Origin: Bifidobacterium catenulatum subsp. kashiwanohense JCM 15439 = DSM 21854
Lineage (GTDB): Bacteria > Actinomycetota > Actinomycetes > Actinomycetales > Bifidobacteriaceae
Assembly: GCF_001042615.1 (NCBI RefSeq)
Contig: NZ_AP012327.1
Span: forward strand, 744,001 to 808,000
DNA: 64,000 bases
Reading direction: 5' to 3'
Of the stretch, positions 12,473 through 18,034 are shown one piece after another. A program made the translations under genes and the position numbers. The notes under the pieces were generated by a model, which made no database searches, had not been told where the DNA came from, and was given only the letters and a program-made list of their open reading frames with translations. Each line of letters opens with the position of its first letter. Position 1 is the stretch's first letter.

Positions 12473-12513
12473 AAGAGGCCTTGAAATCATGTGCAATGAT
12501 TTCAAGGCTTCTT
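12473..12513 (+). terminator. clpC terminator
   Basis: GCCTTGAAATCAT (12478-12490) pairs perfectly with ATGATTTCAAGGC (12496-12508), flanked by AAGA/TTCTT, then TTTG. It ends clpC and faces the 3' end of the deaminase gene. Confidence 0.88.
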
Positions 12514-12556: not shown

Positions 12557-13882
12557 TTACAACGTCAGCAAATCAAGATCAGTATCGATCGACGTGTTGC
12601 GGGTAAACAGCGTACGCCCCTCGCGTACCGAACGAAGCACTTCGCAACGCTCATATACGGCATCAAACACGCTGGAAGCATCAAGCACAATGAAGCTTGC
12701 CGGCTTGCCCTCCTCAAGACCATACGAATCTCGCATGCCGAGCGTGGTCGCACCATTGACCGTCAGGAACTTCAACGCATCATCGATCTCCTCAAAACTC
12801 ATCATCTGCGCCAAATGCAGCACATAATCGAGAATCAGCATCATATTGCCGTTACCGACCGGATACCAGGGATCTTGCATGGAATCCTGACCAAGCGACA
12901 CATTCATCCCAGCTTCGGTGAGCTCCTTGACTCGCGTGATGCCACGACGCTTCGGGAACGTGTCTTGACGCCCCTGCAGATACAGATTTTCCGTAGGCGC
13001 GCAGGCGAAATTGATATGTGCGGCCTTCAACAGCTTGCTCAGATGGAAGAAATAGGCATTGTCGGCCGATCCCAAGGAGCAAGTGTGGCTTGCCGTGGTC
13101 TTCGAACCAATACCGGCGCGATAGGCGAGTGCGGACAGCAATTCAAGATAACGTGAGTTTGGATCGTCGGTTTCGTCGCAATGCACGTCGATGAGTTTGT
13201 TGTACTTCGAAGCCAGTTCGACCACGGTGTGCATGGAACGTTCGCCGAACTCACGGCACTGCTCGAAATGCGGAATGCCACCGACGCAATCAGCACCCAT
13301 TTTCAGGCCTTCCTCAACCAAATCCGCTCCGGATTCGCCATGAGGACCTTCATAGGAGTACATGCCCTCCTGCGGGAAGGAGACGATCTGCAGCGTGACC
13401 GTATCTTTCAGTTCCTCCTTAAGCTCCAGCAGGGCTTTGAGCGAGGTAAGATTCGGATCGGTCACATCGGCGTGCGAACGGATGAATTGCACGCCGTGAC
13501 GCATTTCCTTTGCTATGCCGATTTTCGCCCGTTCCTTGACCTCGTCAACGGTAAGATCGGATTTGGTCTCGCTCCAGCGCTGAATGCCTTCGAACAGGGT
13601 GCCTGACTCGTTCACCGCGCCGGGCTTGCGTGCGGTAAAGACGTAATCAAGATGCAGATGGGTGTCGCAGAATGGTGGACAGACCAGCTTTCCGCCCAAA
13701 TTGATGACTTCCACGCTCGCCATATCTTTGCCTTGTGCTTCGAGTGTTGCTTTGAGATTGGGTGCAATGCTGATGAACTTGCCGTCTTCGACGAGAATAT
13801 CTTGGATTGCCGCTGTTTCGGCTGCGGTGCTGCTTGGCATGCCGGTGGCGATGTGTGCGTTGGTGAACAGTTGCGTGCTCAT
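12557..13882 (-). CDS. codA: Cytosine/creatinine deaminase-family amidohydrolase
   Basis: A 441-residue metal-dependent hydrolase of the cytosine deaminase type. Seen: H75-L-H77 (CDTHLHLDY), Q171 in FPQEGM, H234-C-D-E237, H266 in ASHT and D333 in GQDSMQDPWYP. These align with E. coli CodA residues H61/H63, Q156, H214/E217, H246 and D313. The residue after the metal Asp, D314 in E. coli and a known specificity position, is S334 here. Members of this family also include creatinine iminohydrolases, which release ammonia from creatinine. The ATG at 13882 follows GGAAGGAGCG. It is divergent from a PucR regulator and next to a transporter and a creatininase, so the substrate may not be cytosine. 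Confidence 0.88.
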   Translation of the reverse strand: MSTQLFTNAHIATGMPSSTAAETAAIQDILVEDGKFISIAPNLKATLEAQGKDMASVEVINLGGKLVCPPFCDTHLHLDYVFTARKPGAVNESGTLFEGIQRWSETKSDLTVDEVKERAKIGIAKEMRHGVQFIRSHADVTDPNLTSLKALLELKEELKDTVTLQIVSFPQEGMYSYEGPHGESGADLVEEGLKMGADCVGGIPHFEQCREFGERSMHTVVELASKYNKLIDVHCDETDDPNSRYLELLSALAYRAGIGSKTTASHTCSLGSADNAYFFHLSKLLKAAHINFACAPTENLYLQGRQDTFPKRRGITRVKELTEAGMNVSLGQDSMQDPWYPVGNGNMMLILDYVLHLAQMMSFEEIDDALKFLTVNGATTLGMRDSYGLEEGKPASFIVLDASSVFDAVYERCEVLRSVREGRTLFTRNTSIDTDLDLLTL

Positions 13883-14065
13883 AATCGCTCCTTCCAATAC
13901 GAGTTTTCATGCGAGTTTTCGGGTTCCGGCAGACGTTTTGTCATATGTCCATTGGGTTACGGAAGGGAACCTTTGACGTAATCGTTGATGGTTATTGTCG
14001 GCGTATTGCTTTGCGGTCACGTTACTTGATGTGACATGTGTATTACTTCGGATTGGACGGTTTGT
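13883..14065. promoter_or_regulatory. Divergent control region, deaminase / pucR
   Basis: 183 bases between two divergent starts. It contains GTCAC-N10-GTGAC (14016-14035), an inverted repeat that is a candidate regulator site, and a direct repeat of CGAGTTTTC (13900-13908 and 13912-13920) near the deaminase start. No terminator. Operator function is inferred from position. Confidence 0.4.
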
Positions 14066-15604
14066 ATGGCTGTTACGGTGAGGGAAGTGCTCGATGATGC
14101 CTTGGTTGCGACGGCGGAACCACAGGTTGAAGTTGCTGGCGATAGCTTGGATAATCCGGTGCGTTGGGTGTTCACCAACGAACGCGAGGACGTCGCCTCA
14201 TTTCTGGCGGGAGGTGAGCTTCTGGTGGTGGAGGGGCGATCTTTAGTTGCGGACGGTCGTGAAAAACGTGCGGACGAATATGTGAAAAGCCTCGTGAATG
14301 CTGATATTGCGGCATTGATGGTCGAATTGGTTGAAGAAGTCACCCAACTGCCGAAAGTGTTGGTGAAGGCAGCCAAGCATGAAGGACTTACGATTATTGG
14401 ATTGCGCCGTCGCATTCCTTTCGTCGATATCTGCCAGAGCGTCAATACCATGATTGTGCGTGGTCAGATGCGTATGCAGATGCAAGTGGACGTTATGTCA
14501 ACTTCGTTGCGTTCTGAGCTTGCTCAGGTGTCCAATCCCAAAGCCGTTGCCGATAGCATTGCGAACCTGTTCGGTGAGGATGTGGTCATATTCGACGTGG
14601 ACGGTCTTGAAGTTGCCCGAGCTGGACAGAACATCCATACCGCTACAGATTGCGGCATTGTGCTTGCATTGGAGGAACAGAAACGGCCTTTGGGTGCTTT
14701 GGAGATCAGTCAGCGCAATACGGTGTTCGATGAAGCGATGTGCAGAAGGATCGAACAGATTGCCGCTCCGGTTTTGGCACTGTACCTCGATGGAGGAGCG
14801 CGCGTCGGCATGGTGGCGCATCTGATTGCGGGGCCGGAAGATGGCGTGCATGTTTCGTCGATGGAGGCGCGTGAGGGCCATGCCATGCTTGATGCGTTGG
14901 GATTCGCCGCTTCGGGCGTGTATATGCCATTTGCCATGAAACTCAAGTCGGTGTCCAACGCCATGCCGGCAATCGTGTCGATGATCGACGATTTCGAATC
15001 CAACGGCGGTTGCGAATCGATCTGTTTGTTGGAAGGCGATCTAATGATCGGTTTTCTCGCGGCGCAAGATAGCGGCGGCGATGTGTCGGTATTTTCAGAT
15101 CGGTGTTTGCATGCGTTGACGCAAGTCGCTGCAAACGAATACGTATATACCGTGCATGGCCGCGCAGCGTTGGACACGATTTCATTGATGGACGCGTTCG
15201 GTGCGTTGCGCAGTGTGATCCGAACATGCATTTCGAACGATGCGGAATGCCCGTATGGAACCCTCGAATGTGTGGATTCCTCTTTGCTGGAACGCATGTT
15301 GGGAATGGAACGTACCGATGAGGCCGTGCGCATGGTGATCACGCAGACGGTGGGGTATGAGCTTATGCATAACGCCATGCTGATCGACACGTTGTGCGCC
15401 TGCTTCGACAATCTCGACAACAAGACCGGCGCATGCGAGCAATTAGGTATCCAACGGCAGACGTTGTACAACCGATTGGACAAAGTGACACAGATCGTGG
15501 GCATATCGCCTACCGATAAAATCAGCTGGTCAATGCTGCTTTTAGGCGCGAAAATAGCGAAATCGCAACATAATCACACCATATCTTCCACTTCGACGCT
15601 GTAA
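14066..15604 (+). CDS. PucR-family transcriptional regulator
   Basis: A 512-residue regulator. The N-terminal PucR domain (about 1-130; VREVLDDALVA... and GGELLVVEGRSL) is the form found in regulators of purine and other nitrogen-compound catabolism. A GAF-like middle (about 150-250) follows. The C-terminal PucR helix-turn-helix (about 440-500) has the QTLYNRLDKV recognition helix. The ATG at 14066 is preferred over upstream non-ATG codons. It is divergent from the deaminase and upstream of the transporter and creatininase, so it most likely controls this locus in response to the substrate. Confidence 0.88.
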   Translation: MAVTVREVLDDALVATAEPQVEVAGDSLDNPVRWVFTNEREDVASFLAGGELLVVEGRSLVADGREKRADEYVKSLVNADIAALMVELVEEVTQLPKVLVKAAKHEGLTIIGLRRRIPFVDICQSVNTMIVRGQMRMQMQVDVMSTSLRSELAQVSNPKAVADSIANLFGEDVVIFDVDGLEVARAGQNIHTATDCGIVLALEEQKRPLGALEISQRNTVFDEAMCRRIEQIAAPVLALYLDGGARVGMVAHLIAGPEDGVHVSSMEAREGHAMLDALGFAASGVYMPFAMKLKSVSNAMPAIVSMIDDFESNGGCESICLLEGDLMIGFLAAQDSGGDVSVFSDRCLHALTQVAANEYVYTVHGRAALDTISLMDAFGALRSVIRTCISNDAECPYGTLECVDSSLLERMLGMERTDEAVRMVITQTVGYELMHNAMLIDTLCACFDNLDNKTGACEQLGIQRQTLYNRLDKVTQIVGISPTDKISWSMLLLGAKIAKSQHNHTISSTSTL

Positions 15605-15764
15605 GCAAGGGGAACTTGGCAAAACGTCCAAAACAGATGGTTGCGGTTTAACAATCAGTTCACTTTGGCGCAAATACTTCGGGCGATAGTCAGAGTCACA
15701 ACGTTCGCCGGGTATGAAGAAAATGCGAACGTACAGACAGATTCAGCAGAAGAAAGCAGGTGAC

Positions 15765-17126
15765 ATGATGAGTGCCAGTGCAACAATCGCAACCGCCAAC
15801 AGGGCTTCCGTGTCTGAACAGTCCGAAGAGCAGAAGATGGTCAAGAAAGTGGCCGTCTCGTCTTTCCTCGGCAATTTCATTGAATGGTTCGACTACGCTT
15901 CCTATTCCTACTTCGCGGCCACCATCGCTCTGGTGTTTTTCCCGTCCGGCAATCACACGGTCGCCATGCTGCAGACGTTCGGCGTGTTTGCACTGTCATT
16001 CGTACTTCGTCCGATCGGTGCACTGTTTTGGGGCAATTGCGGCGATAAGAAGGGACGCAAGGGCGCTCTTGCGATTTCCATCATGTTCATGTCGGGTGCA
16101 TCATTCCTGATTGGCTGCCTGCCGTCATATGATGTGATCGGCATTTTCGCTCCGGCACTGTTGCTGCTGCTTCGTATGGTGCAGGGCTTCTCCGCTTCCG
16201 GTGAATATGCCGGCGCCGCAACCTTCCTTGGCGAATACGCGCCGACCAAGAAGCGTGGCATCTACTGCTCGTTGATTCCGGCATCCACCGCCATCGGTCT
16301 GCTCGTAGGCTCCACGCTCGCCACCGTGATGACCGCTTCGCTGAGTTCTGATGCACTGACCTCTTGGGGATGGCGTATTCCGTTCCTCATGGCCGGCCCG
16401 CTTGGTCTGATCGTGCATTTCATCCGTACCAAGCTCGCTGATTCGCCGGTGTATGCTTCCATGACCGAAGCTTTGGACGACAAGCAGCAGTTCGCTTCCA
16501 CCACCAAGAGCGTCTCCCCACTGCGCGAGCTGTTCCAGAACCATTCCAAGACTCTGGTCATCAGCTTCGGCGCCTGCGTGCTCAACGCGGTCGGCTTCTA
16601 CACGGTGCTCACCTACCTGCCGACCTATCTGAGCGACACGGTTGGCATGGCTGCCGCACAGTCGTCCACCATCACCACCATCTGCCTGGTACTGTATGTG
16701 GCTTTGGTGTTTGGCATGGGTCACATCTCCGACACGTTCGGACGCAAGAAGGTGCTGATTGGTGCATGCGTGGCCTTCATCGTGCTCACTGTTCCGGCCT
16801 TCATGGCGCTGAGCACCGCACAGTTCTGGCCGGTGCTGATCGTTGAGCTCGCCATGTGCGCCACCCTGACCGCCAATGACGGTACGCTTTCGAGCTACCT
16901 GACTGAGACCTTCTCGACATCGGTTCGTTTCACCGGCTTCGCATTCAGCTTCAACCTTGCCAACGCCATCTTCGGTGGAACTGCACCGTTCATCGCAACC
17001 TGGCTGATCTACACCACTGGTTCGAGCATCGCTCCGGCCTGGTACATGGTGGCGGTGTCCGCCGTGGCACTGGTCGCCATGATCCTCTCTCACGAAAACA
17101 CGGATAAGGATCTGAGCCGCATCTGA
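15765..17126 (+). CDS. MHS-family (major facilitator) metabolite:H+ symporter
   Basis: A 453-residue, 12-helix inner-membrane transporter. The metabolite:H+ symporter subfamily is indicated by the start FLGNFIEWFDYASYSYFA, the inter-helix motif GDKKGRKGAL, LRMVQGFSASGEYAGAATFLGEYAP and the repeat of the loop as GHISDTFGRKK in the second half. Relatives carry organic acids, betaines, proline or dicarboxylates. I chose ATG 15765, close to AGCAGGTGAC; an upstream ATG at 15714 would add 17 residues. It is followed by the creatininase gene and is the likely importer of that pathway's substrate; the substrate itself is unproven. Confidence 0.9.
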   Translation: MMSASATIATANRASVSEQSEEQKMVKKVAVSSFLGNFIEWFDYASYSYFAATIALVFFPSGNHTVAMLQTFGVFALSFVLRPIGALFWGNCGDKKGRKGALAISIMFMSGASFLIGCLPSYDVIGIFAPALLLLLRMVQGFSASGEYAGAATFLGEYAPTKKRGIYCSLIPASTAIGLLVGSTLATVMTASLSSDALTSWGWRIPFLMAGPLGLIVHFIRTKLADSPVYASMTEALDDKQQFASTTKSVSPLRELFQNHSKTLVISFGACVLNAVGFYTVLTYLPTYLSDTVGMAAAQSSTITTICLVLYVALVFGMGHISDTFGRKKVLIGACVAFIVLTVPAFMALSTAQFWPVLIVELAMCATLTANDGTLSSYLTETFSTSVRFTGFAFSFNLANAIFGGTAPFIATWLIYTTGSSIAPAWYMVAVSAVALVAMILSHENTDKDLSRI

Positions 17127-17143
17127 GAAGAAACGGTTTTACG

Positions 17144-17238
17144 CAACAATTCCTCGAAACAATAAACGCCGTCCCTGAAACATCGATTGCAACATCGATT
17201 CGCGGGGACGGCATCATCGCAATCATTATCAATTGTTG
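17144..17238. repeat. Nested inverted repeats between transporter and creatininase
   Basis: The outer pair CAACAATT (17144-17151) / AATTGTTG (17231-17238) and the inner pair GCCGTCCC (17168-17175) / GGGACGGC (17205-17212) are exact. The inner loop holds a direct repeat of ACATCGATT (17180-17188, 17192-17200). The whole lies 38 bases before the creatininase ATG, in what would be its leader. Confidence 0.7.
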
Positions 17239-17275
17239 AAACGCAAACCAACAACAGCACATAAAAGGAGCAATC

Positions 17276-18034
17276 ATGAGCAGCAGCCGTCGGATGGACC
17301 ATATGACCTGGCCGGAAATTGAAGCATCGAAATCAAAGCCGGTTATTGTGCCAATCGGCTCCACCGAACAGCATAGCCAGCATCTTCCCCTTGGTGTGGA
17401 CGCCATGATCGCCAGCCATGTGTCTGAAGACCTCGCCGAACGCATCGACGGCATCGTGGCACCGACCATGAACTACGGGTACAAGTCGAAGCCGCTTTCC
17501 GGGGGCGGCCCATTGTTCCCCGGCACCATCGACATGAACGGTGTGACGGTGATCAATCAAATGCATGATGTGCTTGGCGAGCTGATCGCGGACGGTTTCA
17601 CCAAAATCGTGGTGATGAACGCGCATTTCGAAAACGAGGCGTTCATTATCGAGGCAATCGATCTGATCACCCGCGAAACCGGGGGAGTGGCCACCATCGT
17701 CGAAACCAACTGGTGGGATCCGCTGCCGGAGAACGTGGTCGAGCAGGTGTTCGACGGACTCGTGTTCCCCGGTTGGGCGTTGGAACATGCCGCAGTGACG
17801 GAAACCTCATTGATGATGCATTATGAGCCGGAATTGGTGCATATGGACCGTGTGATCGACGAAGGCAATGTTATACCGAAGGCTTACGTGCGCTATCCGG
17901 TGCGCAAGGGCGACGTTCCGGATTACGGCGGACTGGCCACTCCTGCAGGTTCCAGCGCCGAACGAGGCAAGCTCATCGTCAATGCCTGCATTGATGCGGT
18001 GGCCGATATTTGTGCTGCCGAATTCGGCGCATGA
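17276..18034 (+). CDS. Creatininase (creatinine amidohydrolase) family enzyme
   Basis: A 252-residue metal enzyme. Creatininase opens creatinine to creatine reversibly. The residues that bind the two metals in the Pseudomonas enzyme are all here: E31 and H33 (GSTEQHSQHLP), D42, H117 and E119 (NAHFENEAFII). Features that set true creatininases apart from relatives such as MftE or FAPy deformylases also match: YGYKS...SGGG..FPGT (68-84), the Trp of the mobile lid (NWWDPL, 145-150), and GW..EH...TETSLM with W167 and H171. The Tyr next to the metal His is Phe here. It has a good ribosome site (AAAAGGAGCAATC). It is last in the transporter-creatininase unit; no creatinase follows. Confidence 0.9.
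   Translation: MSSSRRMDHMTWPEIEASKSKPVIVPIGSTEQHSQHLPLGVDAMIASHVSEDLAERIDGIVAPTMNYGYKSKPLSGGGPLFPGTIDMNGVTVINQMHDVLGELIADGFTKIVVMNAHFENEAFIIEAIDLITRETGGVATIVETNWWDPLPENVVEQVFDGLVFPGWALEHAAVTETSLMMHYEPELVHMDRVIDEGNVIPKAYVRYPVRKGDVPDYGGLATPAGSSAERGKLIVNACIDAVADICAAEFGA

Follow-up and report, generated by a model that had tools for sequence, protein, structure and literature searches.

A PucR-linked gene cassette of a gut bifidobacterium, probably for scavenging nitrogen from creatine and creatinine

In Corynebacterium glutamicum, CreT, CrnA and CodA serve the use of creatine and creatinine as nitrogen sources: growth on creatine requires creT, CodA deaminates creatinine with release of ammonia, and N-methylhydantoin is reported to be a dead-end product (PMC8864220). 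Strain ATCC 14067 carries creT–crnA and uses creatine as a nitrogen source (PMC8864220). Eggerthella lenta has a creatininase and no creatinase, and its colonization lowers colonic creatine in mice (PMC11149096). Here we analyse a 64,000-nucleotide stretch of Bifidobacterium catenulatum subsp. kashiwanohense JCM 15439 (positions 744001–808000 of a complete 2.34 Mb genome; hereafter the window) and, within it, a four-gene cassette that, judged by sequence comparison, most likely serves to take up creatine and creatinine, waste products of human muscle, and to release ammonia from both. A literature search limited to open-licence PMC papers found no description of this bifidobacterial cassette.

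An initial annotation of the window had placed four genes in a row, with a deaminase gene divergent from a PucR regulator, and all four open reading frames were found at those positions. The leftward gene, codA1 (12557–13882, minus strand), encodes a CodA-like amidohydrolase lacking Asp314, predicted to be a creatinine deaminase from its family profile, its conservation in Bifidobacteriaceae and its pairing with creatininase elsewhere. Its reading frame as listed extends to a TTG at 13897, but the ATG at 13882, preceded by an AAGGAG ribosome site, is the better start. Rightward from it, on the plus strand, lie genes for a PucR-family regulator (14036–15604, likely start 14066), an MHS-family MFS symporter that is probably a creatine importer (15714–17126, likely start 15765) and a creatininase, or creatinine amidohydrolase (17276–18034). 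The domains are, in this order, amidohydrolase, PucR plus HTH_30, sugar-transporter/MFS of the metabolite:H+ symporter kind, and creatininase; the folds are already fixed by solved homologues. We read the four genes, at a probability of about 0.72, as a PucR-controlled nitrogen-scavenging cassette for creatine and creatinine. Creatine, perhaps with creatinine, would enter through the MHS symporter; the creatininase, whose reaction is reversible, would run mainly from creatine to creatinine and water; and the CodA-like enzyme would convert creatinine to N-methylhydantoin and ammonia, pulling the equilibrium. The ammonia would be assimilated and N-methylhydantoin would exit as waste.

The product of the last gene is probably a true creatininase, predicted to interconvert creatinine and creatine. 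It matched the Pfam family with E = 1.8e-55 and scored 328.2 bits against the equivalog profile TIGR04448 (cut-off 235); its nearest solved relatives are structures of the Pseudomonas putida creatininase. An MftE-like function was rejected on a profile score of 106 bits against a cut-off of 172, and an IolN-like function on 75 bits against 245; the initial annotation had likewise set the protein apart from MftE-like relatives. The residues it had singled out (E31, H33, D42, H117 and E119, with the lid Trp and GW..EH blocks) are all present. When aligned with the P. putida enzyme, all metal ligands of the latter (E34, H36, D45, H120 and E122) are identical in the window protein, and lid residues Trp154 and Trp174 and catalytic His178 (P. 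putida numbers) are retained. Three positions differ, with Asp175 replaced by Ala, Tyr121 by Phe and Gly119 by Ala; Tyr121 and Asp175 are not defining for the whole creatininase family. Ala175 and Ala119 are also present in Bacillaceae creatininases (L206, L211 and L217) whose genes lie 0.5–2 kb from that of an M24 creatinase homologue; Phe121 recurs in a creatininase from Shinella (L145) that adjoins an M24 gene. Since creatininases near a creatinase homologue or an M24 gene share them, these substitutions do not exclude a true creatininase.

The altered pocket (D175A and Y121F) might alternatively reflect a reversed series, in which the deaminase makes N-methylhydantoin and the creatininase homologue opens its ring to N-carbamoylsarcosine. 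The bond cut would be the same lactam bond, and the genome has no hydantoinase above cut-off. We regard this series as very improbable, however, because D175A is shared by the creatininases near a creatinase homologue, so that the pocket fits creatinine, and because the cassette, the only place searched for it, holds no N-carbamoylsarcosine amidase to profit from the product.

The deaminase is CodA-like, with 4r7w and 1k6w as solved relatives. Against the cytosine deaminase profile NF006685 it scored 470.6 bits, below the cut-off of 483; a second bifidobacterial CodA (codA2) scored 603.9 bits, above it. At the positions of E. coli CodA D313–D314 the window protein reads QDS, retaining the metal-binding Asp and replacing Asp314 by Ser. 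Wild-type E. coli CodA has Asp at position 314; the E. coli entry aligned here is 1r9z, a solved structure of the D314S mutant. Ser occupies this position in every codA1 row aligned, and Asp occupies it in all codA2 rows but one, which has Ala. A canonical cytosine deaminase was ruled out, the profile score being under the cut-off and Asp314 lost. We take the loss of Asp314 to mark a subclass that includes Klebsiella Kpn00632 and C. glutamicum CodA. The substrate of the window enzyme is probably creatinine and its product N-methylhydantoin.

It is also conceivable that the substrate of the deaminase is instead a pyrimidine, for example 5-methylcytosine or isocytosine, and that its gene adjoins that of the creatininase because a single regulator governs the use of two separate nitrogen sources. 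The window enzyme and Klebsiella 4r7w both have Ser in place of Asp314 and share a P-T-E motif, and the Klebsiella 5-methylcytosine deaminase (4r7w, 4r85 and 4r88) belongs to the same CodA fold family. In our tree, however, the Klebsiella enzyme falls outside a 63-row group of bifidobacterial and creatininase-linked deaminases (support 100/100, drawn open and with a long-branch warning), and a close homologue of it adjoins codB and a PucR-domain gene, not a creatininase gene. Separately, two plasmid deaminases, from Citrobacter and Enterococcus, are 52–60% identical to codA1 and lie near insertion sequences, one of them after an MFS gene.

Pairing of the two enzymes beyond bifidobacteria was assessed in a named-genome scan with the creatininase alignment, of which the best 80 matches were considered; the fractions that follow thus describe relatives of the window creatininase, not all creatininases. 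The matches listed comprise 70 non-bifidobacterial creatininase loci, and 39 of these have a deaminase 49–65% identical to codA1 nearby, often together with a PucR gene; a PucR-family gene is present in 28 loci of this set. Hosts of paired loci include gut Clostridia (Clostridium, Romboutsia and Anaerotruncus), Phascolarctobacterium faecium, Desulfovibrio, Fusobacteriaceae and Succinivibrio; in the haloarchaeon Halobellus limi a deaminase with Ser at 314 directly precedes a creatininase 42–43% identical to that of the window. Transporters vary across these loci (EamA, a sodium:solute symporter or a spermidine/putrescine-type ABC system). That the pairing recurs while the transporters change is strong evidence that deaminase and creatininase share a pathway, and its recurrence in several phyla argues against two unrelated nitrogen sources. 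Some observations weigh against a creatine and creatinine cassette. Among the matches listed, 42 loci have flanks of 6 kb or more on each side, and of these 20 lack the deaminase and 22 have it; the window creatininase is only about 37–40% identical to the P. putida enzyme, from which it differs at D175 and Y121; and 4r7w, which we take to be Klebsiella Kpn00632, described as a 5-methylcytosine deaminase, presumably belongs to the same subclass as the window deaminase.

The scan also brought up creatininase loci of other composition. In seven clostridial loci with neither deaminase nor M24 creatinase, the creatininase gene lies beside one for an arginase-family ureohydrolase, usually with an amino-acid permease; this ureohydrolase is a candidate, from a different enzyme family, for hydrolysing creatine or guanidino compounds. 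In Tissierella creatinophila, whose name reflects growth on creatinine, the creatininase gene is followed by an NCS1-family permease gene and preceded by two reading frames that by eye resemble amidinotransferase/arginine deiminase, and no M24 creatinase was found within the stretch examined. Six further creatininase loci carry an ADP-ribosylglycohydrolase-family gene and an ABC uptake system.

Within Bifidobacteriaceae, a creatininase match was found in 17 of 189 genomes, one of them a distant relative (26% identity). The initial annotation had proposed conservation of the gene order as a check, and the remaining 16 genomes all keep the identical four-gene order and orientation (16/16), far beyond chance. 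The four genes are an accessory cassette: in the window they occupy the gap between clpC and the DUF349–hisS pair, and in a genome of the same species (G032) this site is empty, clpC being followed by DUF349–hisS after a 245 bp gap. Outside the family, among 396 sampled Actinomycetota, no creatininase homologue exceeded 41% identity, and full-length deaminase matches reached at most 51%, with one broken-up match at 53–63%.

A close relative (G053, HisS 99% identical) carries an alternative cassette at the same site. Such cassettes, found at 10 loci, combine the deaminase (77–93% identical) with a different PucR (28–34%) and an NCS1 permease; nine of the 10 also hold codA2 (45–49% identical), and three have an extra ATZ/TRZ-like amidohydrolase between deaminase and PucR. 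Deaminases from the two cassette types intermingle in the tree; the partners were therefore exchanged while the deaminase stayed. One genome harbours both types at two places, with nearly identical deaminases. An NCS1 permease and a canonical CodA are neighbours that would suit a pyrimidine deaminase, but the permease resembles creatininase-linked permeases and not CodB: it is 46–54% identical to permeases adjacent to creatininase in Azoarcus and at two actinobacterial loci, and matches CodB at 26% identity over 19% of its length. Taking neighbours, tree and pairing together, we consider a pyrimidine substrate quite improbable. As the neighbours of the MHS and NCS1 relatives indicate, both cassette types pair the deaminase with transporters of kinds that occur elsewhere in creatine/creatinine clusters.

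The MHS symporter is probably a creatine importer of the CreT type and may perhaps take up creatinine as well. It scored 368 bits against TIGR00883, below the cut-off of 443. Its best plasmid relatives among those inspected, 49–52% identical and from Acinetobacter, Caballeronia, Arthrobacter and Paracoccus, have as neighbours genes of the M24/aminopeptidase-P family that match creatinase; the Acinetobacter neighbour matches creatine amidinohydrolase 1chm at 6e-194. Because these four clusters have a creatinase without a creatininase within the viewed flanks, creatine is the likely cargo. At further actinomycetotal loci, MHS relatives occur with creatinase, a cytosine/purine-type (NCS1) permease and creatininase (L233–L235) or with creatininase (L241–L245). 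Altogether, MHS relatives adjoin creatinase or creatininase at at least nine loci.

The absence of creatinase and N-methylhydantoinase genes noted for the window in the initial annotation is correct and extends to the complete genome, in which no Creatinase_N or HyuB match was found and the best scores for HyuA (21 bits, cut-off 25) and D-hydantoinase (90 bits, cut-off 393) fell short. Given that no gene for a creatinase or hydantoinase passes its cut-off, any creatine formed from creatinine would go unused. Creatinine might still be the sole substrate, imported and mostly converted to N-methylhydantoin and ammonia, with the creatininase, as a buffer or dead end, merely bringing a share of it into equilibrium with creatine; this is in essence the scheme of the initial annotation. 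Creatinine would be a substrate of both enzymes, the genome lacks creatinase, and the NCS1 cassettes of relatives, which pair the deaminase with a permease resembling creatininase-adjacent ones, fit direct creatinine uptake. We nevertheless think this scheme unlikely, as a dead-end creatininase would hardly be retained in 16 of 16 loci and the importer's relatives next to creatinase without creatininase point to creatine as cargo. Creatine is the more likely imported substrate than product, because the importer's relatives adjoin creatinases and no other creatine-consuming enzyme was found in the genome. The initial annotation, which had creatine as a dead-end product, thus probably read the flow backwards. 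Its wider proposal of creatinine use under one regulator holds up in the active-site residues, gene order, cross-phylum pairing, importer relatives and a shared upstream motif, and probably needs correcting in the direction of the pathway.

The regulator carries both domains expected of its family, the ligand domain PF07905 (80.5 bits, cut-off 33.5) and HTH_30 (PF13556; 41.3 bits, cut-off 27). Comparison of intergenic regions yielded the operator-like element GCAAA-N10-SAYART, one copy of which faces the deaminase gene (13994–14014, minus strand) and a second the importer gene (15670–15690, plus strand). These are the two copies in the window, where about 0.3 would be expected; genome-wide there are six matches, and a backward-read control gave none. 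The element also precedes the NCS1 gene in eight of the 10 alternative cassettes; these had no part in its derivation, although several of them are close relatives. We infer from this placement that PucR binds these elements; it would probably sense creatine or creatinine and activate the divergent deaminase promoter and that of the importer through them. A scan for promoter and terminator consensus sequences gave counts close to those expected from shuffled sequence and was not relied on. Two hairpins were noted at the cassette: GCCGTCCC...GGGACGGC at 17168–17212, in the gap between the MHS and creatininase genes, has no T run and is shared only with the two nearest relatives, and an 18-pair hairpin at 12473–12513, where the clpC and deaminase genes converge, has a terminator-like score on both strands.

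The related enzyme pairs in many gut anaerobes are candidate genes for the long-known breakdown of creatine and creatinine in the gut, and offer targets for deletion in bifidobacteria, Clostridia, Phascolarctobacterium and Desulfovibrio, with N-methylhydantoin as the predicted excreted product. Strains of the same species with and without the cassette at one site provide a natural control. More tentatively, and at somewhat less than even odds, an anaerobic route from creatine through creatinine to N-methylhydantoin and ammonia, built on the creatininase–deaminase pair with PucR and interchangeable transporters, may be widespread, undescribed and a main genetic basis of gut bacterial creatine and creatinine breakdown, bifidobacteria included.

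Among known systems, the aerobic creatinine clusters, such as that on the Azoarcus KH32C plasmid, likewise bring together creatininase, an MHS transporter (48–51% identical) and an NCS1 permease, but use a creatinase to turn creatine into sarcosine and urea, where the bifidobacterial genome, lacking creatinase, would use the deaminase. The Eggerthella-type loci, with creatininase and MHS and in some cases BCCT genes, encode an MHS protein 52–54% identical to that of the window within about 2 kb of the creatininase; the latter, however, is of the P. putida type and only 33–36% identical to the window enzyme, and no full-length deaminase match was found in these genomes among the matches listed, except in one (G254). 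Closest, as likened by description, is C. glutamicum with creT–crnA and crnT–codA, which shares an MFS importer, a creatininase and a CodA-type creatinine deaminase. Strain ATCC 14067 differs in having N-carbamoylsarcosine amidase and HyuB, the latter missing from the bifidobacterial genome, and the C. glutamicum genes lie in separate AmtR-repressed operons, whereas the bifidobacterial genes form one cassette with its own PucR. The locus thus appears to be a C. glutamicum-type route gathered into a single PucR cassette in gut bifidobacteria, its enzyme pair recurring in gut anaerobes.

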